Notes: generated by a model not told the origin, from the letters alone. Counted from the first letter of the stretch, positions 35,715 through 64,000 are shown. The stretch is 64,000 nt of DNA from Gammaproteobacteria bacterium (GCA_018262975.1 JADFDG010000004.1:169961-233960); one strand, 5' to 3'. Program-made: numbers and translations.

Positions 35715-35748
35715 ATTCCGCTACACCGCCGCCCCCAGGTTGTAGCCC

Positions 35749-35934
35749 GCAAAACCGGGGACGAAATCGGGGGTAACTGGTCATTTTCCGCTGCAGAACC
35801 CCTTAAATATCAATAGGTTGGAATTCCGGAAGGGAGAGGGCCTAGCCACCACGCAAAAAGACGTCGCAAGGCGTTGATTCTAAAGACAAAAGCGGCTTCG
35901 GCCGCTTTTGTCTTTTATGGGCAATTGACGTGCG
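35749..35934 (+). repeat. Cassette boundary module R1
   Basis: The module has three parts: a conserved right end (35749-35837, with GCAAAACCGGGGACGA and a TATCAATAGGTTGGAATTCC box); the core GGGCCTAGCCACCA at 35838-35851; and a conserved left end (35852-35934) with GCAAAAAGACGTCGCAAGGC, a hairpin terminator and GCAATTGACGT. It is the first of four copies (others at 48387, 53620 and 57336). By eye it is roughly 80% identical to R3. Confidence 0.85.
35882..35915. terminator. Hairpin terminator in R1 (15-bp arms, TTCG loop)
   Basis: AAAGACAAAAGCGGC-TTCG-GCCGCTTTTGTCTTT is perfectly paired and has A and T tracts on both sides, so it should terminate in both directions. Its relatives in R2 and R3 keep the stem core GCGGC-TTCG-GCCGC. 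Confidence 0.85.
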
Positions 35935-38285: not shown

Positions 38286-38385
38286 CTGCCATCCCGGTCA
38301 ACGTATTGGAGCCCGCAGGAACAACGGGCGGCGACCCGATCTGGACAGCCGCCCGCTCGCCCACATCTGAATGACGCAAGCCGGA

Positions 38386-38898
38386 TTATTTGGCGGCCGG
38401 CGCCGGCGCATTCATCCAGTGCTGATGCTGCATCATGTTGTCCATCATCATTTGCTGCATGCCCATGTACTGGTCGGACATGTACTGGCGCTGCTTCTGC
38501 TGTTCGGGCGTCAGCTTGTTGTAGTAACCATGCATGCCATCCCAACCCATCATGTGGTCACCCATCATGTTGCTACCCATGCAGCAACCCATGCCGCCGG
38601 CAGTCCACATGTTCTGCATCATGTCCATGGAACCGCGCATGGTGTTCCAGTGCTCCTGCAGGAGCTTCTGACGCTCTTGCGGGTCCTGCGTCTGGCTGAT
38701 CTTCGCCATCTGGTCATGCATCAACTGCATGTTCTGCTGCATTTGCGCGAGTTGCTTGTCGAACTCCGCCGGGTTCGGTGCAGCCGGTTGCGTCACAGCC
38801 TCCTTCTTGGGCGCATCTTTCGGTTTTTCTGCGGCCAGTACCGGTTGCGCTGCCAGTACGGCGAACGCCAGACCGATCGTTACGATTGCCTTTTTCAT
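38386..38898 (-). CDS. Methionine-rich periplasmic protein
   Basis: From the Met at 38898 the protein is 170 residues with a Sec signal peptide (MKKAIVTIGLAFAVLAAQPV, then LA-AE). The mature protein has a Lys/Pro linker and a helical segment with many Gln and Met (QLAQMQQNMQLMHDQMAKIS). The C-terminal half is extraordinarily Met/His/Trp-rich: GGMGCCMGSNMMGDHMMG, then MMMDNMMQHQHWMN. Such Met clusters bind soft metals such as Cu(I), Ag(I) or possibly Pb(II). It is encoded between the PbrT-like permease and the P1B ATPase, so it is probably a periplasmic metal buffer; this is inference. Confidence 0.75.
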   Translation of the reverse strand: MKKAIVTIGLAFAVLAAQPVLAAEKPKDAPKKEAVTQPAAPNPAEFDKQLAQMQQNMQLMHDQMAKISQTQDPQERQKLLQEHWNTMRGSMDMMQNMWTAGGMGCCMGSNMMGDHMMGWDGMHGYYNKLTPEQQKQRQYMSDQYMGMQQMMMDNMMQHQHWMNAPAPAAK

Positions 38899-39074
38899 TG
38901 TCGACACCTCATGGATTGAAGAGACCACTGCCTTTCCTTGCGCGGCTTCAACAAAGCCGTACCACTTCATACCGCTACAACAACCGATTGCGCAGTCCCT
39001 GCGAAGAAATATGCTGCAATCCTTCTCTCAGAACGCCACCGCCACGCCCTCGATCGGTGCATTGGGTGACGCCA

Positions 39075-41006
39075 TCAAGACTGCTTCCCATCCGCGGGGA
39101 TGCCGGCACGTTGGGCAGCACGCCGGTTCATCACGAATGCTGTAATCAGCACGACAAGGCAAAGGACCTGTGCCAGGACGCCCTGCAGCGTCGGGTAGAG
39201 GCCTATCCACTCGATGCGCGGCAGCGAAACCAGTTCAGCAGGCAGCCACCCTGCCTCCTGCACGGCCGCAATACCCTTGCCAGTGAGTACCACGGCGAGG
39301 ATGGCCATCAGGATGGCACTGAACGAGAAGAACTGCGCGATGGGCAGACGCGCCGACAGTCGCAGCATGCTCCAGGCAATACCTGCCAGGACAACGACCG
39401 CAAACAGGCTGCCGGCAACGATCGCGTGGCCGCCACCCTGGCTCCACATCGCCACGTAGAACAGGATCGTCTCGAACACCTCGCGGTACACCACCACGAA
39501 AGCAAGCAGGAACAGGAACCAACCGGAACTACGCGACGCTGCGGAGAGGACTTTCGCCTGGACGTATTGCTGCCAGGCGCCTGCCTGACTCTTGTTGTGC
39601 ATCCAGATACCGACAAAAACGAGTACGGCTGCCGCGAATAACGAGGCAATACCTTCCGTCATCTCGCGGCTGGCGCCACTGATGGCGATCACGTTGGTCG
39701 CCAGCCACCAGGTAGCGACGCCGCCCGCCAGTGCCGCGAACGTTCCGCCATGAACGTACGCGACCTGCGTGCCGCGATCCGTCCGGCGCAGGAACGCGAT
39801 GATCCCGACGACAATCAGCAATGCCTCAAGACCTTCGCGCAGAAGGATCGTGAATGCACCGAGGAATGCAGAGCTGGCATCGGTGACCGTCGACGAGAGG
39901 GTCGACTCCACGCGCGGCAGCAATGCCGTCACTGCATCAATGCGATCCTCAACCTGGGCGGCCGGTACTTTGTTGGTGATATCCGTACGCAAGGCGAGCA
40001 TCGCCACTTCGACGGAGCGCATCAGCTCCTCGTCCTTCGCCTTGAGCGATGGCTCCAGCGGCTCGAAGCCATCGAGATAGGCAGCTACCGCCAGACGTGT
40101 GGCCTGCGCGTGGTCTCCCTTCCGGTAGGCATCAAGGCTCTGCGCGAGATTGTCGCGAACGACAGCGAGACTTTGTGATGCGTGCGGCTGGATCGCGTTC
40201 GGGTTGTGCCGCAAGTAAGCGGCAATGGCAGGGCCGGCATCACCGGGAACCGCTTCGACCATCGCTGCCGGTGTCAGCGTCGTCAATTGCTCAAGCGTGC
40301 CGAATTTTTCCCGCAGTTGCGCGTCGTCCTGCCAGCGCTTTTCACCGGTTTGCGCGAGCGCCGGATCGAAGGCGAACTGGCCGACGTAGAAGGCCAGCGC
40401 CCAGCGGTCCTCCTCGGGCGTATTCGCGAAACTCGACATGGACGTTCCATCCAGTCCCTGCGTGATCACCTGAAACAGGCCAAAGAGACTGCGTTGATCG
40501 GCGCGCTCCTTGTCGGTGAACGCGATCGGCGGGGGCGTCAGGCTGGCTGCCAGCGGGCCATCGCCCGCGCCCGTCACCCCGTGACAGGAAGCACAGTTCT
40601 CTGCGTATAGCGCTTTGCCGCGGGAGACATCCGGTACGCGGGCCGGCGCTTGTGGAACCGGGTAGGCCGCCAGCAATTGGCCGCCGAGATCTCGCGCCAG
40701 GCGCGCAACGGTATCTGGGTCCTGCCGCGCCTCGATTGCCTGGACCAGGCCCTGCGCCTGCCTTGCCAGTACCGCGCGGGCCTCTGATGGCGGGAGGGAG
40801 CCGATCTCCCGCGAAACGGTTCCGGCGAAGTCCTTCATCTCGGCGTATTCGCTGTCGCTGAGGACCTGCCCGTGGCCGACAGCGCCCCGGTAGTCGACGG
40901 CGACATAGTCCAGCATGCGCCAGAGGGTACGGACATCCGGGCTGGCGGCCAGCACGTTGGACGACAAAAGAACCAGTGCCAGGGGCAACGCGAACCGAAG
41001 TTTCAC
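39075..41006 (-). CDS. PbrT-like FTR1-family permease with cytochrome c domain
   Basis: FTR1-family permeases take up Fe or, in lead operons, Pb(II). The 643-residue protein has a signal peptide (KLRFALPLALVLLSSNVLAA) and a c-type heme domain with CASCH (ENCASCHGVTGAGDG) near residue 155. A helical periplasmic linker follows, then seven membrane helices with two REXXE metal motifs (REGLE and REVFE). Fusion of cytochrome c to FTR1 is the PbrT architecture. The start is GTG 41006 with GAGAGG upstream; the ATG at 41057 lies within the -10 of its own promoter and cannot be used. It is divergent from merR. Confidence 0.85.
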   Translation of the reverse strand: MKLRFALPLALVLLSSNVLAASPDVRTLWRMLDYVAVDYRGAVGHGQVLSDSEYAEMKDFAGTVSREIGSLPPSEARAVLARQAQGLVQAIEARQDPDTVARLARDLGGQLLAAYPVPQAPARVPDVSRGKALYAENCASCHGVTGAGDGPLAASLTPPPIAFTDKERADQRSLFGLFQVITQGLDGTSMSSFANTPEEDRWALAFYVGQFAFDPALAQTGEKRWQDDAQLREKFGTLEQLTTLTPAAMVEAVPGDAGPAIAAYLRHNPNAIQPHASQSLAVVRDNLAQSLDAYRKGDHAQATRLAVAAYLDGFEPLEPSLKAKDEELMRSVEVAMLALRTDITNKVPAAQVEDRIDAVTALLPRVESTLSSTVTDASSAFLGAFTILLREGLEALLIVVGIIAFLRRTDRGTQVAYVHGGTFAALAGGVATWWLATNVIAISGASREMTEGIASLFAAAVLVFVGIWMHNKSQAGAWQQYVQAKVLSAASRSSGWFLFLLAFVVVYREVFETILFYVAMWSQGGGHAIVAGSLFAVVVLAGIAWSMLRLSARLPIAQFFSFSAILMAILAVVLTGKGIAAVQEAGWLPAELVSLPRIEWIGLYPTLQGVLAQVLCLVVLITAFVMNRRAAQRAGIPADGKQS

Positions 41007-41055
41007 AACCAACCTCTCGAAAGCAGATATCCGGACGTTAATGCGACTGGATCTC

Positions 41056-41086
41056 ATCTAACACCCTGTAGTAACTTCAGGGTCAA
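41056..41086 (-). promoter_or_regulatory. MerR-type promoter with 19-bp spacer for pbrT
   Basis: On the minus strand, -35 TTGACC (41086-41081) and -10 TTAGAT (41061-41056) are separated by exactly 19 bp. Within it lies the inverted repeat ACCCT...AGGGT (41063-41083, ACCCTGTAGTAACTTCAGG and onward). An over-long spacer with the dyad inside is the known architecture of MerR-family activation by DNA unwinding. It drives the pbrT-Met-rich-ATPase genes and is bound by the regulator encoded at 41105. Confidence 0.88.
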
Positions 41087-41104
41087 GCATTCTGGAGCCT
41101 GATC

Positions 41105-41530
41105 ATGAGCGAAGCCCTGAAAATCGGCGAATTGGCCGGCCGGTTGAGCGTTCCGGTTGAAACGATCCGCTACTACGAGAAAGAGGGCCTGCTGCCCTCC
41201 CCGGCGCGAACCGCCGGCAACTATCGGCTGTACGACCAGAATGCCGTGGAACGCCTGACCTTCATCCGGAATTGCCGCACGCTGGGCATCACACTGGACG
41301 AAGTGCGCACGCTATTACGCGCCAAGGACAACCCCGACGCGGAATGTGGCTCAGTCAATCGTCTGGTCGACGCGCATATTGACCAGATCAACGTACACAT
41401 TGCCGAACTGGAGCGTTTGAAGGGTAGCCTCCTGACGCTCCGAACTCGCTGCGGTCCCGCACGTCACGCGCGCGACTGCGGCATCCTCAACGAACTTGTC
41501 CATGAGCACGACCCGCGCTCACCGTGTTGA
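41105..41530 (+). CDS. MerR-family Pb/Cd-responsive regulator (PbrR/CadR type)
   Basis: The 141-residue protein has an N-terminal winged helix (ALKIGELAGRLSVPVETIRY, then YEKEGLLPSPARTAGNYRLY) and a dimerisation helix. Candidate metal ligands are Cys81 (ECGSVN), Cys116 (RCGPARH) and Cys125 (DCGIL), the three-cysteine pattern of PbrR/CadR. It is divergent from the pbrT promoter and activates it on metal binding. Its 3' end overlaps the convergent DUF3703 gene by 12 bp. Confidence 0.92.
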   Translation: MSEALKIGELAGRLSVPVETIRYYEKEGLLPSPARTAGNYRLYDQNAVERLTFIRNCRTLGITLDEVRTLLRAKDNPDAECGSVNRLVDAHIDQINVHIAELERLKGSLLTLRTRCGPARHARDCGILNELVHEHDPRSPC

Positions 41531-41890
41531 GTCGTCGCCGGCATCCGATTTTCCTTCGATCAGCTTTTGCAACTGCGGATCAATCGGCATCCGCCTGAAC
41601 ATGTTGACGTTGCTGCCGCCGGTATTGCCCGTCGGCACCACGCCGACCGCCGATCCCAGCGCACCAAATACGATCCGTACCGCCTGGCCGATCACGGCCA
41701 CCGGCCTGCGGCGCTTCACCTCAACCCGCAACATGTGCCAATGCGTCTGCGCGTGCGGAACGACGTACGCCTGGCCCAGCACATGCGCACGCTCAAGGTG
41801 GGCGAACCCACCGTCGATGTCACCGGCCTCGATCAACGCCAATGCCTGGGCCATTTCACTGTTGAATGCCTGTCGCTGAACCGGATTCAT
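41519..41890 (-). CDS. DUF3703 family protein
   Basis: The 123-residue protein starts at Met 41890 (MNPVQRQAFNSEMAQALALI). It has the family pattern AGDIDGGFAHLERAHVLGQA, then HAQTHWHMLRVEVKRRRPVA, with conserved His and Trp. A membrane-proximal helix follows (IGQAVRIVFGALGSAVGVVP), then GNTGGSNVNMFRRMPIDPQL. The family accompanies metal-resistance operons; its function is unknown. It is the last gene of the six-gene czc-ynfA operon, tail-to-tail with merR. Confidence 0.8.
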   Translation of the reverse strand: MNPVQRQAFNSEMAQALALIEAGDIDGGFAHLERAHVLGQAYVVPHAQTHWHMLRVEVKRRRPVAVIGQAVRIVFGALGSAVGVVPTGNTGGSNVNMFRRMPIDPQLQKLIEGKSDAGDDSTR

Positions 41891-41977
41891 CTGCGTCTCC
41901 CGATCACCGTTGATTCGCCACACACCACAGAGGCTAAAACCCTTGGCCTACCCAAGGGTCAAGCAAAGATCCGTCCC

Positions 41978-42310
41978 TCATGCGTTTTTAGGCGCGAACA
42001 TGATGATGGCCATGCCAAGCATCGCGACCGCCGACCCCACCAGGTCCCACGTCGTTGGCCGGATGCCTTCGACAGACCACAGCCAGAGTATCGCCACGAA
42101 AATATAGACACCGCCGTAGGCCGCATACGTTCGTCCTGCGGCAGTCGGGTGCCATGAGAGCAGCCAGGCGAACAGCGCCAGGCTCAACGCTGCCGGCACC
42201 AGCAGCCAGATGCTCTTGTCTTGCTTGAGCCACAGCCACGGCAGATAGCAGCCAACGATTTCTGCAACCGCCGTGACCAGGAACAGTGCCAATGTCTTCA
42301 GTTCGAACAT
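41978..42310 (-). CDS. ynfA: YnfA family (UPF0060) membrane protein
   Basis: The 110-residue protein has four membrane helices and begins [20 protein letters not shown]. Family signatures are [33 protein letters not shown] and [20 protein letters not shown]. YnfA is related to small multidrug resistance pumps and is common next to czc and other metal genes; the substrate is debated. It lies 22 bp downstream of czcA in the same operon. Confidence 0.9.
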
Positions 42311-42332
42311 GCGACATCTCCAGCTTCCAGCC

Positions 42333-45300
42333 TTACGCCGACTTCCGGTAGGCCCAGCGGTACAGTGCCGGCAGCACGAACAAGCTCAACAGTGTGGCGG
42401 AAATGATTCCGCCGATGACCACCGTTGCCAGCGGACGCTGTACTTCCGCGCCGGTGCCGGTGTTGAGCGCCATCGGCAGGAAGCCGAGCGCGGCAACCAG
42501 CGCCACCATGATGATCGGACGCAGCCGCATCAGCGCGCCCTCAATGACCGCATCGACAACGTTTCGCCCTTGATCGCGCAGATCACGGATAGCCGACACC
42601 ATCACGACGCCGGTCAGTACGGCTACGCCAGACAGTGTGATGAAACCGACGCCGGCGGTAATCGAGAGCGGAATGCCCCGCAGCCAAAGGGCAAGTACAC
42701 CACCGGTTAGCGCCAGCGGCACGCCGCTGAATACCAGCAGCGCATCGATACCGGAACGGAAAGTCATCACCAGCAGGCCGAAGATCATCAGCAGCGTGAC
42801 CGGCACCAGCAATTGCAGACGACCAACGGCAGACTCAAGTTGCTCGAAGGTTCCGCCGTAGGTGATCCATATCCCCGGTGGTAGTTTGACCTTCTCGTCA
42901 ACGGCAATTTTCACGTCGGCAACGAAAGATCCCAGGTCACGATCACGCACGTTGGCGGTCACGGCGATTCGCCGCTTTCCGTTCTCGCGGTTGATCTGGT
43001 TCGGGCCTGGCGCCAGTTCCAGCTTCGCCACTTCCGCCAGCGGCACATAGTCTCCATCCGGCAACGCGATGGGCAACCGCCCCAGCGTGCGCAGGTCGTT
43101 GCGCAGGGATTCCGGCAAACGCACCACCAGTGCAAAACGACGGTCACCCTCCGACACCGTTCCCGCCTCGCGGCCACCGATGGCGGTTGCAACCGTGTCC
43201 TGCACATCGGCGATATTCAACCCGTAGCGCGCCAGCTTCGCGCGATCCGGTGTCACCGTGAGTACCGGCAGGCCGCTGACTTGCTCGACCTTCACATCTC
43301 CCGCACCCGGCACCTTGCGCAGCGCTTCGGCCACATCGTTGCCAAGAGCCAGTAGCTGGTCGAGATCGTCACCGTAGAGCTTGACGGCAAGGTCCGATCG
43401 CACGCCGGAGATCAGTTCGTTGAAGCGCAACTGGATCGGTTGCGACATCTCGAAATTGCTGCCGACCGTGCGATTGGCAGCCTCGTTGATGGCCTCGACA
43501 ACTTCTGCCTTGGGTCTATCCGGATCAGGCCACTGATCGTGCGGCTTGAGAATCACATAACCGTCGGCAATGCTCGGAGGCATCGGGTCGGTCGCCACTT
43601 CCGCCGTGCCTACGCGGGCAAAGACGGTCTGCACTTCCGGCACGGTCAGCAGCTCCTTCTCAAGCGCCTTCTGCATTTCCAGCGACTGGGCGAGGCTGGT
43701 GCCGGGAATGCGCAACGCCTGCAGCGCGACGTCGCCTTCGTCCAGGCTCGGGATGAACTCCGCACCCAGGCGCGTGGCCAGCAGCAGGCTGCCGATCACC
43801 AGCAGCACCGCACCCGCAAACCACGGCATGGAGCGTGCCAGCACCTTGCGTAGCAAGGCTTCGTAGCGCGCGGACAACGCGTCGAAGTAGCGGCTGTCGT
43901 GCTCTTTCACCGGCTTGGTCATGAAGGCAGCCACTGCCGCCGGCACAAACGTCACCGACAGGAACAGCGCCGCGATCATGGCAATGATCACCGTCAGCGC
44001 CATCGGCTGGAACATCTTTCCTTCGACGCCGGTGAGGGCCAGGATCGGCAAGTTGACGAGTATCACCACCAGCACACTGACAATGCCGGGCACCGCCACT
44101 TCGCGCGTCGCTTCGAAGGTAACGTGCAGGCGCTCCCATGGCTCGAGTGGTCGCCCGTGATGTCGCTGGGCCAATGCGAGGCGCCGCATGCAGTTCTCCA
44201 GGATGATCACCGCCGCATCGACGATCAGGCCGAAGTCCAGTGCGCCCAGACTCATCAGGTTGGCGCTGACCTGGTTCTGAATCATGCCGGTGATGGTCAG
44301 CAGCATCGCCAGCGGGATCACCGCAGCGGCGATCAGCGTGGCACGCAGGTTGCCAATAAAGGCCAGCAGGACGATCACCACCAGCAGCGCGCCTTCGATC
44401 AGGTTTTTCTGCACCGTCCAGATGGTGCGTTCAACCAGTGACGTGCGGTTGTAAACCGTTTCAGCGCGTACGCCGGGCGGCAGCGTCTTGTTGATCTCCG
44501 CCAGCTTGGTCGCCACCCGCTCACTGACCGTCCGGCTGTTCTCGCCGATCAGCATGACGGCTGTGCCAAGCACGGTTTCGTGGCCATCACGGGTCGCGGA
44601 GCCGGTGCGCAGTTCACGGCCGACACCGACTTCCGCTACGTCGCGCACGCGCACCGGAATACCGCCACGCAAGGCGACAACGGTATTGCTGATATCGGCA
44701 TCACCGGTTACCCGGCCGGTAACCCGCACCAGGTACTGCTCGCCGTTGCGCTCGATGTATCCGGCGCCGCGATTGGCGTTGTTGTTCTCCAGCGCCTCTG
44801 CCAGTTCGTTGAGCGAGACGCGGTAGGCCAGCAGCTTCGCCGGGGCCGGCGTGACATGGATCTGCTTGTCGTAGCCGCCGATACTGTTCACCTCGGTGAC
44901 GCCGGGCACCTGGCGCAATTGCGGACGGATCACCCAGTCCTGCAGTTCGCGCAGCGCCATCGCATCCCAGGGCTGACCGTTGGGCTGGCGGGCGTCGGGA
45001 TCGGCTTCAACGGTGTACTGGAAGATCTCGCCGAGTCCGGTCGCAATCGGCCCCATCATCGGCTCGATGCCTTCCGGCAATTGCCCGCTGGCTTCGCGCA
45101 GCCGTTCACCGACCAGTTGCCGCGCAAAGTAGAGATCCACGCCGTCATGGAAAACCACCGTGACCTGCGCGAGCCCGTAGCGCGACAGCGAGCGCGTGTA
45201 GGCAAGGTCCGGAATACCCGCCATCGCGGTTTCGATGGCGTAGGTGATGCGCTGCTCAACTTCCAGCGGCGAATAGCCTTCTGCCTCGACGTTGATCTGC

Positions 45301-45440
45301 ACCTGGACGTTGGTGATGTCCGGTACGGCATCAATGGGCAGCTTCTGGTAATTCCAGATACCCAGCGCGCCCAATGTCGCGACGAAGATCAGGACGAGCC
45401 AGCGGCGTTCGATGGATTGCTTGAGGATGATGTCGATCAT
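42333..45440 (-). CDS. czcA: CzcA-type RND heavy-metal efflux transporter
   Basis: This is an HME-RND inner-membrane proton/metal antiporter, the pump of the tripartite CzcCBA system for Co, Zn and Cd export. The 1035-residue protein has two halves of six helices and large periplasmic domains. The N-terminus ([20 protein letters not shown]) and [20 protein letters not shown] are typical. The helix-4 metal/proton signature [20 protein letters not shown] carries the conserved Asp (DFG..D) of the HME1 Zn/Co/Cd group, and [20 protein letters not shown] lies in the second half. It follows czcB by 33 bp. Confidence 0.94.
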
Positions 45441-45473
45441 GACGACACCTCCGCTGTATGCGCGCGATTGTGA

Positions 45474-46451
45474 TCAGTGCTCATGTTCGGCCTCGCCCTT
45501 GCCCTGCTCCGCCTTCAGCGCAAAGCTGTTGGCGGTCGCAATCACGTCACCGGCAGCAAGCCCTTCCTGCACTTCAACCCGGACACCATCGTTACGGCCG
45601 ATCTTCACCGGCTGCGTGCGGAAACCGTGCTCAGTCTTCACGAACACCGACGGCTTTCCTTCGATGTCCTGCAGGGCCGATTGCGGAATCGTCAGCGCGG
45701 CCTTCGACGTGGCAACGGCTACCTCACCCGTCACGAACAGGCCGGTGGCCCAACGGCCATCACGATTGGCCAGCGGCACACGCACGGCAACGCTTTGGTT
45801 ATCGCTGCTGCCGACCGGCGCAATCTGGTTGATCTTGCCTTCGGCCGTCAGCTCGCCTTCGCTGGTGAGAATGCGCACGATCTGGCCGGAACGCAGTTTC
45901 ACGCGATCCGCCGGGAATGCGCTGAGTTCGGCGGTAACGCTGGACAGGTCAGTGATGGTGAATATCGGTGTGTCACCGGCGGTTTCGCCCGGATTGGTGT
46001 TGCGCGCAGTGACGGTGCCGGCAATCGGTGCCGTGACGGCGTAGACCTGCAGACTGTCGTTGCTTTCGACGGTGGCCAGCGTGGCGCCGGCCGCGACGCG
46101 ATCACCGAGGTTCACGCGCACGGATTTCACGAGGCCGGGAAAGCGTGCGGCTACGTCACGGGTACGTGCGGGATCTACCGTTATCGTGCCAAAGAGCGAC
46201 AACGTCTGGCGGATTTCTGCCGGGCCGGCTGCCTCGGTCTGGATACCGGCACGGGAGATGCGCTCGGCGTCGATGTCGAGCTCACCAGGGGCTTCTTCTT
46301 CGTGGCCCGCTTCGCCTTCGGCGTGGCCGGCCTCCCCTTCGTGGCCTGCTTCAGCCGCTTGGGTCTTGTCAGCCGTTTCGGCGGCCTGATCCGGGGCACC
46401 GCAGCCGGTGACAGCGACTGCCACGATCAGGGCAATAAAAATGCGATTCAT
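45474..46451 (-). CDS. czcB: CzcB-type periplasmic adaptor (membrane fusion) lipoprotein
   Basis: The adaptor links CzcA to the outer-membrane CzcC. The 325-residue protein begins MNRIFIALIVAVAVTG-C with a lipobox, so it is a predicted lipoprotein. An acidic and His-rich N-terminal stretch (AGHEGEAGHAEGEAGHEEEA) may bind metal. The biotinyl-lipoyl-like region (LFGTITVDPARTRDVAARFP) is followed by the barrel domains. The C-terminus ends in a His/Glu tail (GKGEAEHEH). The Met at 46451 overlaps the end of czcC by four bases. Confidence 0.92.
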   Translation of the reverse strand: MNRIFIALIVAVAVTGCGAPDQAAETADKTQAAEAGHEGEAGHAEGEAGHEEEAPGELDIDAERISRAGIQTEAAGPAEIRQTLSLFGTITVDPARTRDVAARFPGLVKSVRVNLGDRVAAGATLATVESNDSLQVYAVTAPIAGTVTARNTNPGETAGDTPIFTITDLSSVTAELSAFPADRVKLRSGQIVRILTSEGELTAEGKINQIAPVGSSDNQSVAVRVPLANRDGRWATGLFVTGEVAVATSKAALTIPQSALQDIEGKPSVFVKTEHGFRTQPVKIGRNDGVRVEVQEGLAAGDVIATANSFALKAEQGKGEAEHEH

Positions 46452-47749
46452 GGTTTTACTCCTGCGTTCTGTTCCGGGCGCGCAATGGCCAGCCCGGTCA
46501 ATGCCTCGATGTCGGCGAGCAACGTGTGATACGTCGCGGCGGCATCGATGGCAGCGGTTTCGGTGTCGATCAGTTCCTGTTGTGCGGAAGCCAGTTCCAG
46601 CCACGAGAATCGCCCGCGCTCAAAGCCGTAGCGGGTCTGCTCCAGTGCCTCATTGGCCAGCGGCAGCGCATCGTCATGCAGGGTCCGCGCTTCTTCGCGC
46701 GCCTGTTGCAGGCTGGCGAGCAATGCCATCAGGCGCAGTTCCGCATCACGTTGCGCGATGACGTTGTCAGCGCGCTGCGCTTCCAGACGCGCTTCGGCAG
46801 CGGCGACACCGCCACGGTTGCGATCAAACAGCGGGATAGGCAGGGAAACACCGAACAGCAACGCGCTGTCACTGGTGTCGGCGAAGTTGCGCATGCCGAC
46901 GCTGGCCGTGATCGGCGGACGGCCCACGGCCTTCGCATGTGCCACCTCCGCCTCGCGCAGGCGCTCGCTGTTGCGCAAGGCCGCATGTACCGGGCTACGC
47001 GCGAGGGCAGTACGCAGTTCGGCTTCATTGAGGGTTGGCGGCAAGGTGAACAACGAGCCCTCGGCACGCGCGAAATCCGCGTCTTCCACACCCCACAGGC
47101 TGGCCAGTTGGCGGCGTGCCAAGGCGAGATCCTGCTCCGCACGCCGGCGCTCGATCTGCGCGCGCTGGTAGGCCATGCGGGCGCGATTACGCTCGGCAAT
47201 CGGGGCACGGGCCGCCGCCGCCAAACGTTCGAGATCCGCACGGGTATTTTCCGCGAGGGTCTCCGCGCGCTGCGCCAGCGCGAGTTTTTCCTGCGCGGTG
47301 ACCACGGCGATGAAACGCCGGGCCGTATCGGCCGCCAGATCCAGCTTCGCCAGCGACTGCGCATCCTGCGTCAGCGACAGGTTGGCCTCGGCCACGGCAA
47401 CCCCGGCACGGCGCGTGCCGCCACCGAAGGTCTGGCTGATGGCGAGCGTGGTTTCAGCGCTGTCGGCACCCGCGTAGGCCCCGGAACCGGCGATGTTCTC
47501 CAGTTCCAGCGACAACTCGGGGTTGGGCATCACACCCGCTTGGTCGCGCTCGGCCATGGCAGCGGACACATACGCGGCCCCGGCCTTGAGGCGCGGGTTG
47601 GCGGCTTCGACGCGGCGCACCGCGTCCATCAGGGTCAGCGACGGCTCGGTCGCCGCCCCCGCTGGCCCGGCAGGGGATTCCGCCAGGGCTTCAACACAAA
47701 CGAACAGGGCGATGGCCAAGGGCCACCGACCGAATGGGGATCGGGACAT
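46448..47749 (-). CDS. czcC: CzcC-type outer-membrane efflux protein
   Basis: This is the outer-membrane channel of the Czc tripartite pump (TolC superfamily). The 433-residue protein has a signal peptide (RWPLAIALFVCVEALA-ES) and two OEP repeats of long helices with beta strands. Features include LTLMDAVRRVEAANPRLKAG, GVMPNPELSLELENIAGSGA and TTLAISQTFGGGTRRAG. The second half has the related NVIAQRDAELRLMALLASLQ. It is translationally coupled to czcB. The order C-B-A is typical of czc operons. Confidence 0.92.
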   Translation of the reverse strand: MSRSPFGRWPLAIALFVCVEALAESPAGPAGAATEPSLTLMDAVRRVEAANPRLKAGAAYVSAAMAERDQAGVMPNPELSLELENIAGSGAYAGADSAETTLAISQTFGGGTRRAGVAVAEANLSLTQDAQSLAKLDLAADTARRFIAVVTAQEKLALAQRAETLAENTRADLERLAAAARAPIAERNRARMAYQRAQIERRRAEQDLALARRQLASLWGVEDADFARAEGSLFTLPPTLNEAELRTALARSPVHAALRNSERLREAEVAHAKAVGRPPITASVGMRNFADTSDSALLFGVSLPIPLFDRNRGGVAAAEARLEAQRADNVIAQRDAELRLMALLASLQQAREEARTLHDDALPLANEALEQTRYGFERGRFSWLELASAQQELIDTETAAIDAAATYHTLLADIEALTGLAIARPEQNAGVKP

Positions 47750-48346: not shown

Positions 48347-48386
48347 GTGGACGCCGCTCTCGAACCCCAGACCTCATTCGCAGCGC

Positions 48387-48555
48387 GCAAAATCGGGGCC
48401 AAATCCGGGGGTAACACGCCATTTCCCGAAACGAAACTCCTTATAAATCAACCGGTTGGAATTCCGACAGGGAGAGGGCCTAGCCACCATGCAAAAAGAC
48501 GCCGCAAGGCGTTGATTCCAAAGACAAAAGCGGCTTCGGCCGCTTTTTGTTTTTC
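48387..48555 (+). repeat. Cassette boundary module R2
   Basis: The right end reads GCAAAATCGGGGCCAAATCC with the AATCAACCGGTTGGAATTCC box. The core GGGCCTAGCCACCA is at 48476-48489. The left end has GCAAAAAGACGCCGCAAGGC and a TTCG hairpin at 48520-48550. It is more diverged from R3/R4 than those are from each other, suggesting an older junction. Confidence 0.85.
48520..48550. terminator. Hairpin terminator in R2
   Basis: AAAGACAAAAGCGGC-TTCG-GCCGCTTTTTGTTTTT retains the R1 stem core with a T-run in the plus direction. Confidence 0.8.
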
Positions 48556-48675
48556 TGCACCATGCAGGCGCAGGTATTTCAGCATCTTCCGGGCAGTCGC
48601 CCGCCCCTTGCGGTAATTGCGGATCTCGGGAATACCCGCCCCCCCCTTGAGCCGGGCGCGCCCCGGGCAGAAGAT

Positions 48676-52868: not shown

Positions 52869-52962
52869 CGACGTCCCGAAGCAGGCAGGACGCCCCCACA
52901 CACCCCGCCGCCAGCTGCCCGGCCGCCTTGCCAATTTTTGCCATCCCCGGCAGACTCACTCC

Positions 52963-53208
52963 ATGAGCACCATGAACATCTCCCTCCCCGACAGCCTGAA
53001 GTCCTTCGTGGACGACCAGGTCCGGTCCGGCGGCTACGGCACCAGCAGCGAGTACGTTCGCGAACTGATCCGCAAGGACCAGGACCGCCTGAAGCTGCGC
53101 GAGTTGCTGCTCGCGGGCGCCGCCTCCGCTCCTGCCGCTGCGGCTGACGGGGCTTACTTCCAGAAGTTGCGCGACCGGGTCCGCCCGCCCGCGAAGAAGC
53201 GTCGGTGA
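52963..53208 (+). CDS. parD: ParD-family antitoxin (copy 1)
   Basis: The 81-residue protein has an N-terminal ribbon-helix-helix (MNISLPDSLKSFVDDQVRSG, then GYGTSSEYVRELIRKDQDRL), the classical type II ParD/CopG fold, and a disordered C-terminus that binds the toxin (PAAAADGAYFQKLRDRVRPP). The ATG at 52963 is chosen because it matches copy 2 and the family. It overlaps parE by four bases (GTGA). ParD neutralises ParE and represses the operon. It sits at the right end of cassette B. Confidence 0.93.
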   Translation: MSTMNISLPDSLKSFVDDQVRSGGYGTSSEYVRELIRKDQDRLKLRELLLAGAASAPAAAADGAYFQKLRDRVRPPAKKRR

Positions 53209-53534
53209 CCCACAAACCGGTCATCCCCCGGGAACTTGCCAACCGGGAGGTGGATGACGCCATCGCGTGGTACCTGAACGAGGGGGCCGACCAGGCCGCC
53301 CTCGACTTCATCGCGGCGCTGGAAAAGGCCTACGGGCATATCAGCCGCCACCCTGCGAGCGGCTCGAGCCGTTATGCGCACGAATTGAACCTGCCGGGCC
53401 TGCGCAGTTGGCCGTTGGCGAAGTTTCCCTACCTGGTTTTCTACGTCGAGCACACCGACCACGTTGATGTGTGGCGCGTGCTGCATGCCGAGCGAGACAT
53501 TCCGGCGTGGATGAAGGAATCCGGCGTCGAGTGA
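53205..53534 (+). CDS. parE: ParE-family toxin (copy 1)
   Basis: The 109-residue protein starts at GTG 53205. It has the RelE/ParE fold: VIPRELANREVDDAIAWYLN, ALDFIAALEKAYGHISRHPA, LRSWPLAKFPYLVFYVEHTD, then HVDVWRVLHAERDIPAWM. ParE toxins typically inhibit gyrase. It ends 175 bases before the R3 core, with only the conserved right end between. The last ~80 residues are identical to copy 2 (56921), while the first ~27 differ at several positions. Confidence 0.93.
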   Translation: MTHKPVIPRELANREVDDAIAWYLNEGADQAALDFIAALEKAYGHISRHPASGSSRYAHELNLPGLRSWPLAKFPYLVFYVEHTDHVDVWRVLHAERDIPAWMKESGVE

Positions 53535-53619
53535 CGCGCGACGCCGCGATTTGAGCTGCAACAAGTTGTGAGCAAAACAGGGGCTGCCCCACTCACACCC
53601 AGGACCCGTTTTGCAGCGA

Positions 53620-53803
53620 GCAAAACCGGGGACGAATCCGGGGGTAACTGGTCACTTTCCGCAGTGGAAATCCTTATATTTCAATAGGTTGGAACTCTGA
53701 CAGGGAGAGGGCCTAGCCACCATGCAAAAAGACGTCGCAAGGCGTTGTTTTTAAAGACAAAAGCGGCTTCGGCCGCTTTTTGTTTTTCTGCGCAATTGAC
53801 GTT
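53620..53803 (+). repeat. Cassette boundary module R3
   Basis: The right end (53620-53708, GCAAAACCGGGGACGAATCC onward) is identical by eye to R4. The core is at 53709-53722. The left end (53723-53803) has GCAAAAAGACGTCGCAAGGC, a TTCG hairpin and GCAATTGACGT, matching R1. It therefore joins the R4-type right end to the R1-type left end, as expected of a cassette junction. Confidence 0.88.
53753..53786. terminator. Hairpin terminator in R3
   Basis: AAAGACAAAAGCGGC-TTCG-GCCGCTTTTTGTTTTT, with the same stem core as in R1 and R2. Confidence 0.8.
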
Positions 53804-53946: not shown

Positions 53947-54297
53947 TCAAAGCAGCTCGACACCAAACGGCCTGACCGCCAGCGCAAACAGCCAGAAGCA
54001 AAGCACCGTGATCAGCGCGCTGGCCAGCAACGCCGGCCAGAAACCAAAGCGGGCGAGCAGCCACGGAAATGCCAGGAACATCGACAGGGTCGGCAACACG
54101 TACCAGAACGTGTACCAGGCGTGGTTGGCGAGCTTCTCGGTTGGCTGCTTCTCGACGTACAGCCATATCAGCGTCAGAACAGTCACCAACGGCAGCGCGG
54201 CGACCAGCGCGCCCAACTTGTCGTGGCGCTTTGCGAACTCCGAGACCAGCACGACTACGCCGGCAGTCACCAGGTATTTCGTCAGCAGCCACGCCAT
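53947..54297 (-). CDS. DUF3147 family membrane protein
   Basis: The 116-residue protein has about four membrane helices (MAWLLTKYLVTAGVVVLVSE; LGALVAALPLVTVLTLIWLY; FWYVLPTLSMFLAFPWLLAR; LLASALITVLCFWLFALAVR). The EFAKRHDKLGALVAALP segment is typical of DUF3147. Its function is unknown. It is the last gene of the minus-strand hupE operon, four bases from the anchor gene's stop. Confidence 0.8.
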   Translation of the reverse strand: MAWLLTKYLVTAGVVVLVSEFAKRHDKLGALVAALPLVTVLTLIWLYVEKQPTEKLANHAWYTFWYVLPTLSMFLAFPWLLARFGFWPALLASALITVLCFWLFALAVRPFGVELL

Positions 54298-54301
54298 GGC
54301 T

Positions 54302-54940
54302 TCAGATTACCCGCTTGATATCGATGTAATCGCCGTTCACCCGGAGCGTCACCGTCACCGGCGCGTCGCCACGGTTGCGCCAGAACCAGCCGTGCTTGCC
54401 GTCGAAGGCGGCCGTGAGCACGCCCTCGTCCTTCTCCGTCTGCTTGCCCTTGCCATAGCCGTGGTAGAAATCACGCGGCGCGCCGTAGGGATCGCCGTGG
54501 GTGTCGTAGTTGACCTTGCCACCGTTGGCCGTCCACAGGTACTGCACCAGGGCACCCTGCCTCATCTCAAGTTTCACTTCCGCGCCCTGGCCGGGCTGCA
54601 GGGTGATCGACATTTCGTCCTGTCGCGCTGCGGACGACGGCGCATCCGCCGGAGCCTGCGCTGCCGCGCTTGCGCTTGATTGCGCCGGCATTTCCGGCAC
54701 GGCAGGTTGCGGCGAAACAGCGTCAGTCGCCGCGTTCTCCTGCGCGATCGCCTGCTTGACCTCACCCATCTGCGTCAGCCCCAGCAGGCGGCCCATGCCC
54801 GTAGGGTCGACGGCGTACTCGGCAGGCATCACCACTGTCACGAGCAACAGCAACGCAACACCGAGCGCAATCACGGTGGAGTGCAGCAACTGGCGGGAGG
54901 TCGGCAAGTCGTCGGCAGAAGGCATCTGGTTGTTGAACAC
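54302..54940 (-). CDS. Transmembrane anchor protein with periplasmic beta domain
   Basis: The 212-residue protein has one N-terminal membrane helix (STVIALGVALLLLVTVVMPA), an Ala/Pro/Ser-rich linker (about residues 85-108), and a periplasmic beta domain with ITLQPGQGAEVKLEMRQGAL, TANGGKVNYDTHGDPYGAP and GKHGWFWRNRGDAPVTVTLR. Such proteins accompany HupE-like permeases on metal islands. It probably acts with the HupE-like protein; the function is unknown. It overlaps neither neighbour (13 bp to hupE). Confidence 0.75.
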   Translation of the reverse strand: MFNNQMPSADDLPTSRQLLHSTVIALGVALLLLVTVVMPAEYAVDPTGMGRLLGLTQMGEVKQAIAQENAATDAVSPQPAVPEMPAQSSASAAAQAPADAPSSAARQDEMSITLQPGQGAEVKLEMRQGALVQYLWTANGGKVNYDTHGDPYGAPRDFYHGYGKGKQTEKDEGVLTAAFDGKHGWFWRNRGDAPVTVTLRVNGDYIDIKRVI

Positions 54941-54953
54941 GGCAATGACTCCG

Positions 54954-55646
54954 TCAGGAAAGGTAATAGCCGGTGAGCTGGTAGCCCATCAGCAGGAATC
55001 CGGCGCTCATCATGGCGACGTTGGTCGCGTAGGCGTGACGGGCGAAGCCGTCAGTGCGTCGCCACCAGCCCATCGCGATAAGGATCGCAGCGAGCGCGAG
55101 CAACTGGCCGAGTTCGACACCGACGTTGAATGCAATCAGGTTTGGCACCAGGCCGTCCGGAGAAAAGTCGTACTCAAGAATCTTGGTGGCCAGGCCGAAA
55201 CCGTGGATCAGGCCGAACAGCAGGGTCGCGCCGCGCGTGTCCGGCTGGAAACCGAACCACCGCCGGAATGCGCCGAGGTTGTCGAGGGCCTTGTAGACCA
55301 CCGAGAAACCGATGATGGCGTCGATCAGGTAGGCGCTGACGCTGACCTGCATGAGCACGCCGGCCAGCAGCGTGATGGTGTGGCCAACGGCAAACAGCGT
55401 GACGTAGAGCGCGACATCCTTCAGCCGGTACAGGAAGAAGATCACGCCGAACAGGAACAGCAGGTGGTCGTAGCCGGTCATCATGTGCTTGGCGCCCATG
55501 TAGACGAAGGGCAGCAGCATCACGCCGGAACTTTCCTGGATAAATCCCTTGTCCCCGGAGGCAACGCCGTGCGCAAAGGCATCGACGGCAAACAGCGCGG
55601 CAAAAGCGGCCAACACGTAGAGCAGCGGCTTGGCGATGGCAGTCAT
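54954..55646 (-). CDS. HupE/UreJ-family membrane protein
   Basis: The 230-residue protein has six or seven membrane helices. It starts at Met 55646 (MTAIAKPLLYVLAAFAALFA) with a signal-like first helix ending DAFAHG. It carries the HupE_UreJ_2 features GAKHMMTGYDHLLFLFGVIF, VGHTITLLAGVLM and LFGLIHGFGLATKILEYDF, with conserved His and Asp that may bind Ni or another metal. The longer opening to 55718 would cover the CsoR-type operator and is rejected. The metal is unknown. Confidence 0.82.
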   Translation of the reverse strand: MTAIAKPLLYVLAAFAALFAVDAFAHGVASGDKGFIQESSGVMLLPFVYMGAKHMMTGYDHLLFLFGVIFFLYRLKDVALYVTLFAVGHTITLLAGVLMQVSVSAYLIDAIIGFSVVYKALDNLGAFRRWFGFQPDTRGATLLFGLIHGFGLATKILEYDFSPDGLVPNLIAFNVGVELGQLLALAAILIAMGWWRRTDGFARHAYATNVAMMSAGFLLMGYQLTGYYLS

Positions 55647-55686
55647 GAATACAACCGTGGACGTGGCCGGAAGGCGGATTGACCGC

Positions 55687-55703
55687 ATCCCCCCGGGGGG
55701 GAT
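55687..55703. promoter_or_regulatory. CsoR/RcnR-type operator (ATCCCCCC-GGGGGGGAT)
   Basis: ATCCCCCCGGGGGGGAT is a near-perfect palindrome of a C-tract followed by a G-tract. It is centred between the hupE start (55646) and the yqaA start (55758), which are divergent. Operators of CsoR/RcnR-family repressors are C/G-tract dyads with AT ends. The regulator is encoded two genes away at 56231, so it should control both operons. Confidence 0.75.
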
Positions 55704-55757
55704 AGGCTGCGGCAGCATAACCGTCCCGCTCCGCGGGCATCAAGACCCCGGTGCAGC

Positions 55758-56204
55758 ATGTGGGACTTGTCCATTTACGCCGGCCTGTTCGCCATTGCCT
55801 TTGGCGCAGCGACGCTGCTCCCCCTGCAATCGGAAGCCATGCTCACGGGCCTGCTGCTGGCCGGGCAACAGCCTGTGGGGTCGCTGTTGTTGATAGCGAC
55901 TGCCGGCAACGTACTTGGCGCCGTCGTGAACTGGTGGTTGGGACGATACGTTGAGCAGTACAAGGACCGGCGCTGGTTCCCCGCCTCGCCGGCGCAACTG
56001 GCACGAGGTCAGGCCGCCTACGCGCGCTGGGGATACTGGTCGCTGCTGCTGAGCTGGATGCCGTTGGGCGGCGATGCGCTGACCGTCATCGCCGGCGTCA
56101 TGCGCGAGCCGCCGTGGCGGTTCCTGCTCGTGGTCACGTTGGCCAAGGGTGGGCGCTACCTGTTCCTGGCCGGGGCCGTGCTGTGGTTTGCTGCACCCGC
56201 CTGA
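55758..56204 (+). CDS. YqaA-type DedA/SNARE-associated membrane protein
   Basis: The 148-residue protein has four membrane helices and begins MWDLSIYAGLFAIAFGAATL. Family features are LLPLQSEAMLTGLLLAGQ, GNVLGAVVNWWLGRYVEQYK, GYWSLLLSWMPLGGDALTVI and AKGGRYLFLAGAVLWF. YqaA proteins belong to the DedA superfamily of lipid/ion-related membrane proteins. It is co-directional with the csoR gene 26 bp downstream and sits on the other side of the CsoR operator from hupE. Confidence 0.85.
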   Translation: MWDLSIYAGLFAIAFGAATLLPLQSEAMLTGLLLAGQQPVGSLLLIATAGNVLGAVVNWWLGRYVEQYKDRRWFPASPAQLARGQAAYARWGYWSLLLSWMPLGGDALTVIAGVMREPPWRFLLVVTLAKGGRYLFLAGAVLWFAAPA

Positions 56205-56230
56205 TCAATATGCCGCGCAAGAGGAAAGTC

Positions 56231-56512
56231 ATGACCGATCACCCGCACCTGCATGAGAGCCATGCCGACATCGCCAAGCGGCTGAAGCGCGCCCGCGGTC
56301 ATCTCGACAGCATCGTCACCATGATCGAGGCAGGACGCGCCTGTACGGATATCGCGCAGCAGCTGCATGCTGTCGAAAAGGCGGTGTGCCAGGCCAAGCG
56401 GACGCTGATCCAGGACCACATCGATCACTGCCTGGAGCACAGCCTTGATGCCGCCCGCAAAGGCAGCCGGGATTCGCTTGAGGAATTCAGGCAGATCACG
56501 AAGTACCTCTGA
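56231..56512 (+). CDS. Metal-sensing CsoR/RcnR-family repressor
   Basis: From ATG 56231 (GAGGAAAG upstream) the protein is 93 residues and all-helical: HADIAKRLKRARGHLDSIVT, then MIEAGRACTDIAQQLHAVEK. Candidate ligands are Cys38, His63 and Cys67 (the C-H-C set of CsoR, Cu(I)), with a His-rich N-terminus (TDHPHLHESH) reminiscent of RcnR and InrS (Ni/Co). The family forms tetramers that release DNA on metal binding. The HupE-like partner suggests Ni or Co; the C-H-C set suggests Cu; this is undecided. Confidence 0.9.
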   Translation: MTDHPHLHESHADIAKRLKRARGHLDSIVTMIEAGRACTDIAQQLHAVEKAVCQAKRTLIQDHIDHCLEHSLDAARKGSRDSLEEFRQITKYL

Positions 56513-56678
56513 GCGTTCATGGGATCTTTGCCGGCGCCCGTTGCCCGGCGAGTAGCCGGGGCCGTGGTGCGGCCAGGGTTTCACAGACACCGACGTGCCA
56601 CTTGATGCGCTCCCCGGGCCCATGTGGCCAGCCGCGGCAGTCCTTGCCAATTTTTGCCATCCCCGGCAGACTTGCCCC

Positions 56679-56924
56679 ATGAGCACCATGAACATCTCCC
56701 TCCCCGACACCCTGAAGTCCTTCGTGGATGACCAGGTCAAGTCCGGTGGCTACGGCACCAGCAGCGAGTACGTGCGCGAACTGATCCGCAAGGATCAGGA
56801 CCGCCTCAAGCTGCGCGAACTGCTGCTGGCCGGGGCTACGTCAGCGCCAGCCGCTCCGGCTGACGGGGCTTACTTCCAGAAACTGCGCGACCGGGTCCGC
56901 CCGCCCGCTAACAAGCGTCGGTGA
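56679..56924 (+). CDS. parD: ParD-family antitoxin (copy 2)
   Basis: The 81-residue protein has the same ribbon-helix-helix as copy 1 with a few substitutions (DTLKSFVDDQVKSG; AGATSAPAAPADG; PANKRR). Upstream, GCCAATTTTTGCCATCCCCG is shared with copy 1. It overlaps parE by four bases (GTGA). Located at the right end of cassette C. Confidence 0.93.
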   Translation: MSTMNISLPDTLKSFVDDQVKSGGYGTSSEYVRELIRKDQDRLKLRELLLAGATSAPAAPADGAYFQKLRDRVRPPANKRR

Positions 56925-57250
56925 CCCACAAGCCCGTCATCCCCCGGGAGCAGGCCAACCGGGACGTAGACGACGCCATCGCGTGGTACCTGAACGAGGG
57001 GGCCGAGCAGGCCGCCCTCGACTTCATCGCGGCGCTGGAAAAGGCCTACGGGCATATCAGCCGCCACCCTGCGAGCGGCTCGAGCCGTTATGCGCACGAA
57101 TTGAACCTGCCGGGCCTGCGCAGTTGGCCGTTGGCGAAGTTTCCCTACCTGGTTTTCTACGTCGAGCACACCGACCACGTTGATGTGTGGCGCGTGCTGC
57201 ATGCCGAGCGAGACATTCCGGCGTGGATGAAGGAATCCGGCGTCGAGTGA
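56921..57250 (+). CDS. parE: ParE-family toxin (copy 2)
   Basis: The 109-residue protein starts at GTG 56921 and is identical to copy 1 from about residue 30 onward; the first part differs (REQANRDVDDA versus RELANREVDDA; GAEQ versus GADQ). From about 57007 to the core at 57438 the DNA is identical to copy 1 by eye. The family fold and likely gyrase-inhibiting function are as for copy 1. Confidence 0.93.
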   Translation: MTHKPVIPREQANRDVDDAIAWYLNEGAEQAALDFIAALEKAYGHISRHPASGSSRYAHELNLPGLRSWPLAKFPYLVFYVEHTDHVDVWRVLHAERDIPAWMKESGVE

Positions 57251-57335
57251 CGCGCGACGCCGCGATTTGAGCTGCAACAAGTTGTGAGCAAAACAGGGGC
57301 TGCCCCACTCACACCCAGGACCCGTTTTGCAGCGA

Positions 57336-57442
57336 GCAAAACCGGGGACGAATCCGGGGGTAACTGGTCACTTTCCGCAGTGGAAATCCTTATATTTCAA
57401 TAGGTTGGAACTCTGACAGGGAGAGGGCCTAGCCACCAGTAC
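57336..57442 (+). repeat. Cassette boundary R4 (terminal, attR-like)
   Basis: The conserved right end (57336-57424) and core (57425-57438) are as in R3, but the sequence that follows is GTACACCTTCCTGACGC instead of the GCAAAAAGACG left end. The core plus GTAC (57425-57442) is identical to 18 bases at the 3' end of tRNA-Met (20021-20038). This is what the outer end of the array should look like. Confidence 0.8.
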
Positions 57443-63282: not shown

Positions 63283-64000
63283 TCAACGCGCCGTCCGGTC
63301 CTGGTAGGCCTTCGCCTGCGCGTTGTCCGGCGCGATGCGCTTCTGCGCGCCCACCGCCCGCTTCACGAAATCGCCGACTCCCTCCGGCAAGCCCTGTTCG
63401 AGCACGCCGAACAGGCCCAGGCCTTTCGGCAGCGTGACCTCCGGCCGCCCGTGCCGGCACGAGGCGACGATCTCGCGTGCGACATCCTCGGGCGCGGATT
63501 TCGGCACGCCGCTGATGCCCAGGCCACTGGTGAGTTCCGTGCGCACCGCCGCCGGCAGGACGGTGGTGATGGTGACCTTCGACTTTGCGATCTCCGCGCG
63601 CACCGCGCGCGAGAGGCTCGCCACGCCGAATTTCGTCGCCGTGTAGACCGCCGCGCCCGGCACGCTCATCTTGCCGGCCATGGAGGCCACGTTGACGATG
63701 TGGCCGCGGTTGCGTTCCAGCATGCCGGGCAACACCAGGCGCATGCCGGTCACCACGCCGCCGAGGTTGATGGCGATCTCGCGGTGCTGGGTGTGCAGTG
63801 TCTGCTCCGCGAACTCGCCGGTGCGCATGATGCCGGCGTTGTTGACCAGCAGGTCCACCGGGCCGAGGCGCTCGGCCTCGGCGATGAATGCGGCGAACGA
63901 CTCGGGATCCGCCACGTCCAGCTTGAGCGCGACCGCACTGGCACCGATGGCGCGCGCCACTTCCTCGGCATGGTGCACGTCGAGGTCGCCGATCACCACG
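63283..64000 (-). CDS. SDR-family oxidoreductase (5' truncated by window), paralogue of 21.9-kb SDR
   Basis: The reading frame is open to the window edge; the N-terminal TGxxxGIG motif lies outside. The visible 238 residues contain NNAGIM, SMAGKMS and YTATK and a C-terminal LFGVLEQGLPEGVGDFVKRA. It is almost identical to the SDR at 21894-22709, with about 90% of residues matching by eye. Two copies on opposite flanks of the cassette array point to a duplication. The substrate is unknown. Confidence 0.93.
   Translation of the reverse strand, partial: VVIGDLDVHHAEEVARAIGASAVALKLDVADPESFAAFIAEAERLGPVDLLVNNAGIMRTGEFAEQTLHTQHREIAINLGGVVTGMRLVLPGMLERNRGHIVNVASMAGKMSVPGAAVYTATKFGVASLSRAVRAEIAKSKVTITTVLPAAVRTELTSGLGISGVPKSAPEDVAREIVASCRHGRPEVTLPKGLGLFGVLEQGLPEGVGDFVKRAVGAQKRIAPDNAQAKAYQDRTAR

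Follow-up and report, generated by a model that had tools for sequence, protein, structure and literature searches.

A pump-less variant of the MreA/NcrB-regulated nickel-responsive resistance module with a HupE-anchor core pair in a gammaproteobacterial genome

The window, by which we mean the whole 64,000-nt stretch of DNA that was analysed (Gammaproteobacteria bacterium, GCA_018262975.1 JADFDG010000004.1:169961-233960), belongs to a 3.3-Mb genome that is 99.95% complete. An ORF check of the window identified a five-gene cassette at 53947-56512 in which every reading frame is present and intact. The genes are arranged as two divergent operons, HupE-anchor-DUF3147 on the minus strand and YqaA-CsoR on the plus strand, separated by a predicted repressor operator (Table 1). 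All five genes of a preliminary description of this DNA are real, and their families were confirmed by Pfam and NCBIfam. The exception is the anchor, for which neither database had a model above cut-off.

Table 1. Features of the cassette and its flanks (window coordinates).
Feature	Position	Strand	Basis
parDE toxin-antitoxin plus repeat R, left cassette flank	52926..53722	+	797-bp direct repeat; ParE PF05016
DUF3147/PRK09272 small four-helix inner-membrane protein (P0001)	53947..54297	-	NCBIfam NF006751
'Transmembrane anchor protein' (P0002)	54302..54940	-	AlphaFold, Foldseek, HupE adjacency
HupE_UreJ_2 permease	54954..55646 (probable ATG start at 55646; preliminary ORF to 55718)	-	PF13795
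Predicted repressor operator GCATCCCCCCGGGGGGGATAG, other strand CTATCCCCCCCGGGGGGATGC	55685..55705	.	between divergent operons
YqaA-type small DedA/VTT membrane protein (P0004)	55758..56204	+	PF09335
CsoR/RcnR-superfamily repressor, MreA/NcrB kind (P0005)	56210..56512 (likely start 56231)	+	PF02583
parDE toxin-antitoxin plus repeat R, right cassette flank	56642..57438	+	direct repeat partner

The permease was assigned to the HupE_UreJ_2 family by its Pfam profile (E=1.7e-55, 187 bits against a gathering score of 24.5). Its start is probably M25: a longer reading frame would run into the operator, and the alignment with relatives sets in at about residue 24-46. The protein has a signal sequence ending in AFA, with the cut before HG judged by eye, followed by six further helices and an H-x5-D-H motif. 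This motif (H54-x5-D60-H61) lies in the first permease membrane helix and is invariant in 35-37 sequences; the other invariant residues are H26, which is the first after the presumed cut, H89 and H148. The AlphaFold model is only moderate (pLDDT 79) and contains the signal helix plus about six further membrane helices. It would place the C-terminus in the periplasm, provided that the mature N-terminus is periplasmic. A PDB fold search with the model returned no significant match. Kinship of HupE to MrdH/RcnA was also considered and was dropped when profile comparison gave no signal.

The preliminary description depicted the anchor as a single-helix protein with a periplasmic beta domain, and AlphaFold agrees. 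It predicts one long helix (residues 15-42) that leads through a coiled segment and a disordered linker to a beta domain modelled with confidence. The domain is modelled as a GOLD-like beta-sandwich on the periplasmic side (residues 106-211, pLDDT about 98). Its best PDB matches in Foldseek are GOLD domains (7rrm, 5azw and 5gu5, E about 1e-5, target TM-score 0.73-0.81). Residues E121, W136, H148, H183, W185 and W187 are invariant, and 35 aligned anchor relatives have no consistent Pfam family match. The idea that the anchor is a split anglerase with homology to Ang domains was ruled out by fold and profile. No anglerase occurs among the domain's top Foldseek matches, and comparison with four Ang-like N-terminal domains gave an hhalign probability of 0.1. 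The functional analogy stands.

Co-occurrence was surveyed in 80 loci, which are the best 80 matches by HupE similarity (65-86% identical) and come mostly from Pseudomonas, so that the fractions hold for close relatives. The anchor gene directly follows HupE in 79/80 genome loci and in 30/30 loci of the same order, the window's own included. A repressor is found in 51/80 loci, YqaA in 33/80, and DUF3147 adjoins the module in 10/80. All five families are together in two loci (L008 and L017). Thus the recurrence proposed for the five-gene set is real, but its members are unequal: HupE and the anchor are the obligatory core, while repressor, YqaA and DUF3147 are optional. In two genomes of the order the outer domain of the anchor is fused in frame to the C-terminus of HupE (L126:1956-3215 and L127:1512-2819, profile E about 1e-30), which agrees with a periplasmic HupE C-terminus. 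Our literature search found no experiment on the HupE-anchor pair itself.

More distant HupE_UreJ_2 proteins have other accessories, either a long N-terminal domain without an anchor gene or His-rich C-terminal tails. If we may generalise from these cases, members of the family seem to be accompanied by a periplasmic metal-handling element of one sort or another. Several shorter, anchor-less members (L122-L125, L135 and L136) have His-containing tails such as DDHSHVHEDM and HSHDGGPAHRH, and DUF3147 adjoins one of them (L124).

The small four-helix protein belongs to the PRK09272 subfamily (NF006751; score 195 bits, cut-off 154). Its plasmid homologues are 60-73% identical, are annotated DUF3147 and often reside in metal islands. 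YqaA has a VTT domain (E=1.3e-12), and in kin loci YqaA proteins 53-64% identical are encoded next to MrdH/RcnA and the repressor. A YqaA-type DedA protein of Rhodanobacter reduces indium accumulation (PMC8679861). This shows that metal efflux has been seen before in the wider family, but the protein has 202 aa, lies in a different locus and acted on indium only. A small His-rich, DUF2946-like secreted protein is encoded between operator and HupE in 56/80 loci (e.g. L004:5487-5843) and is absent from the window.

The repressor (E=2.2e-21, 76.5 bits against 22.8) probably starts at M8. A P. aeruginosa plasmid protein classed as MreA by AMRFinder shares 76% identity with it and a plasmid protein named NcrB shares 64%; identity to FrmR-type repressors is only about 20%. 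The MreA and NcrB namesakes both come from nickel-resistance loci. Of 33 relatives, 95% or more keep H13, H15, H18, C45, H70 and C74. The two plasmid proteins have these His/Cys residues as well, which sets the group apart from FrmR types. One of the PDB matches is the nickel sensor InrS (5fmn); C45, H70 and C74 align with its C53, H78 and C82. The genome's only other CsoR-superfamily gene (L002, G000:C13:6073-6306) adjoins a methyltransferase-like ORF; its product shares only 34% identity with the repressor, confined to a short stretch, and lacks the later His ligand.

A G/C-tract palindromic operator near the regulated genes is expected of MreA/NcrB-type repressors and is present here. The palindrome is the sole site of its type in the window and, allowing up to 2 mismatches, in the 3.3-Mb genome, where a control pattern gave 0 sites. 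Over 19 bases it is exactly the site of a related locus (L013). The same motif lies between repressor and HupE in 41/48 relatives with the repressor, versus 1/32 loci without it; outside this interval the related loci contain 19 motif sites in 531 kb. These results support the earlier proposal that one metal-sensing repressor is shared by both operons. No sigma-70 promoters were found around the operator by consensus.

Direct repeats of 797 bp (95% identical), each consisting of parDE and repeat R, flank the cassette on both sides. The duplicated, near-identical parDE modules may stabilise the cassette. Repeat R (110-190 bp) occurs in four copies of the same orientation, at 35740-35931, 48353-48563, 53611-53802 and 57327-57438. 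These delimit three modules in 22 kb, namely a Cd/Zn-RND block, an ABC-exporter block and the HupE cassette, and we regard R as a boundary element. Among 295 genomes of the order, near full-length copies occur in this genome only, and R was not found on plasmids. The lack of an Rfam match over threshold ruled it out as a known RNA element. Elsewhere in the window are two copies of about 720 bp (21894-22611 and 63283-64000, 88% identical), the second inside an SDR-like reading frame.

The module itself was found on 477 plasmid records by HupE match and 400 by anchor match. Many of the roughly 400 sequenced plasmids that carry the pair are conjugative, and many are from clinical Klebsiella and Enterobacter. 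Movement of the module among bacteria, as the preliminary description supposed, is thus well supported.

Plasmid neighbours of the pair include ncrABC (about 2.5 kb away on an IncR plasmid), RcnA with the repressor, nccB/nccN with repressor and MFS, RND genes with or without MFS, and an NreB-like MFS. The commonest genome layout is repressor-MrdH/RcnA-YqaA-TraX divergent from small His-rich protein-HupE-anchor. Kin loci beside MrdH/RcnA, NreB-like and Ncc/RND nickel pumps bear out the metal-handling setting that had been suggested for the genes. In Sphingobium ba1 a HupE/UreJ-like gene was the most nickel-induced gene by RNA-seq; its cluster also includes nreB and a cnr/ncc-like RND, with the NreA repressor in divergent orientation (PMC5557971). 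A Novosphingobium cluster encodes a HupE that is 76% identical to ours, and it is the similar content of this cluster that links ba1 to the module. The operon of NcrB is induced by nickel (PMC3046157), and deletion of ncrB gave higher nickel resistance and lower cell nickel (PMC8545094). Induction of mreA by Cd, Ni, Zn and Co is reported as cited in PMC11978298. With kin in the mreA/mrdH, ncrABC and nreB/ncc loci, and with the HupE/UreJ-like gene of one such cluster already reported as the top nickel-induced gene, the system as a whole cannot be called undescribed, as had been suggested. The metal is most likely nickel or cobalt, with copper as the rival.

Here the module lacks the pump with which it is usually found. 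MrdH/RcnA was not found in the window, nor NcrC. The NicO family (PF03824) is absent from the whole genome in a search with positive controls, and a search for an NreB-like protein, run without a positive control, gave no match in the genome. Neither urease nor NiFe hydrogenase is encoded in the genome, so the two main nickel consumers are missing. A heavy-metal RND (42333-45440) lies 8.5 kb from the cassette, and the genome encodes two CDF proteins. The RND is of the HME type, with a TM4 motif, and is part of a heavy-metal block (36066-47749) with an adaptor, an outer-membrane partner resembling IhpA, a CadR/PbrR regulator, a Zn/Cd-type P-ATPase and a protein with an FTR1/EfeU-like C-terminal part. 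Among the sampled loci a known pump occurs in the same stretch in 37/55 full-length and 13/20 further ones. The rest, about a third of the sampled loci, have none of the four pump types tested. The statement that none of the five genes is a standard efflux pump is therefore correct, but self-sufficiency does not follow from it, given the pumps in most related stretches and the nearby RND; the loci with no recognised pump leave it a possibility.

We propose that this is a metal-responsive detoxification cassette, most likely for nickel or cobalt, with a repressor on the palindrome and HupE and the anchor acting to give a net drop in cytoplasmic nickel. We put the probability of this reading at roughly 0.62. 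It is built on the genes, the operator, the co-occurrence, the natural fusion and the nickel-pump surroundings of relatives, all of which were seen directly. In the proposed scheme the MreA/NcrB-type repressor would bind the single palindrome and keep both operons silent. Metal entering its His/Cys site would release it from the DNA, allowing HupE, anchor and DUF3147, as well as YqaA and repressor, to be made. HupE would be the inner-membrane carrier that moves the ion. The GOLD-like domain of the anchor, presumably in a physical complex, may sit at the carrier's periplasmic mouth and catch or hand over metal. Cytoplasmic nickel would be lowered, by export or by periplasmic sequestration, with YqaA and DUF3147 as possible helpers. 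Counting against the detoxification reading are the nickel import by those HupE/UreJ permeases that have been characterised, the capture-and-uptake view of the closest structural study (PMC12537917), the missing pump and the in vitro preference of P. putida MreA for Cu.

Transport in the opposite direction is the alternative that deserves most attention, although we consider it unlikely. The cassette would then provide controlled import of nickel (or cobalt/copper), with the anchor domain capturing periplasmic metal for HupE, as proposed for anglerase-HupE fusions. Characterised HupE/UreJ permeases are nickel importers, and the N-terminal His and the H-x5-D-H motif are invariant. The closest structural study also interprets HupE_UreJ_2 proteins with attached metal-binding domains in terms of metal capture and uptake (PMC12537917). 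Export is favoured because the repressor is of the metal-derepressed kind that controls efflux, the genes travel with efflux pumps, toxic nickel induces the Sphingobium gene (PMC5557971), and there is no hydrogenase or urease to feed. The anchor domain, moreover, is not an anglerase by profile, nor is one among its top fold matches. Less probable again is a cassette for copper, or for a broad Cu/Zn/Cd range, instead of nickel. In vitro, P. putida MreA has a much higher affinity for Cu than for Ni (Kd 5.5 versus 125 uM), and Cu is the metal that most disrupts its DNA binding (PMC11978298). The Cu-type RicR is the best NCBIfam model for our repressor, albeit below cut-off, and cop genes are near some HupE-anchor loci. 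Nickel is indicated instead by NcrB genetics and the Sphingobium RNA-seq, by neighbours that are mostly nickel/cobalt pumps, and by HupE itself, a nickel-type permease.

A decaying mrd/ncr-type locus, left with little function after pump loss, would explain why MrdH/RcnA is absent from its usual place in relatives, between the repressor and YqaA genes, and why NicO is lacking throughout the genome. We find this quite improbable, as all five genes have intact frames, the operator and the invariant residues are preserved, many other loci also have no recognised pump nearby, and the RND may serve in its place. It is harder still to believe that unrelated genes are neighbours here by chance. DUF3147 and YqaA are optional, and DUF3147 also occurs elsewhere; but the near-constant anchor-HupE adjacency, the fusions, the shared operator and the two loci with all five families speak against chance, which is already refuted for HupE, anchor and repressor.

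A more tentative idea, which we think possible but would not bet on, is that HupE_UreJ_2 and the GOLD-domain anchor make up a two-part metal exporter, a carrier and its periplasmic handing-over partner, that works without NicO, NreB or RND pumps. If true, this would be a previously undescribed type of efflux system. Should the pair export nickel, the annotation of this family as uptake permeases has the direction backwards in resistance loci. The anchor occurs on about 400 sequenced plasmids, yet has no Pfam family or assigned role. For this question the pump-less cassette is a clean natural construct, free of the confounding pump.

HupE of Rhizobium leguminosarum imports nickel for hydrogenase and has the H-x5-D-H permease signature. 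The HupE of the window differs from it in being a HupE_UreJ_2 protein with a CsoR-type repressor, in its occurrence in resistance loci and in a genome without hydrogenase. The anglerase permeases Ang-1 and Ang-2 (PMC12537917) share the Pfam permease and the conserved His after the presumed signal sequence. Unlike them, our HupE has no fused N-terminal domain: only about 30 residues separate the presumed cut from the H-x5-D-H motif, with no Ang domain inserted, and the accessory is a separate anchored GOLD-like protein. HupE_UreJ_2 proteins with a long N-terminus form a separate set without an anchor gene. The ncrABC(Y)/nreAB loci of Leptospirillum, Klebsiella and Sphingobium ba1 resemble the cassette in their NcrB-type repressor (64%) and in a nearby HupE-anchor pair or HupE/UreJ-like gene, but the window is without the NcrA/NreB MFS and NcrC. 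The mreA-mrdH locus of Pseudomonas putida KT2440 (PP_2969-PP_2968), for Ni/Cd/Zn resistance, and its relatives on plasmids have the same repressor kind (76% to plasmid MreA). In its relatives the operator is shared too, and HupE-anchor and YqaA are again neighbours; the MrdH/RcnA efflux gene is what window and genome do not have. Membership of the mrd, ncr or nre groups goes with a NicO/RcnA- or NreB/NcrA-type pump under the repressor, which was not found here. In sum, the cassette is a variant, without the pump, of the known nickel-responsive resistance module regulated by MreA/NcrB. 'Undescribed' applies only to its HupE-anchor core, a common and conserved pair with no assigned function.
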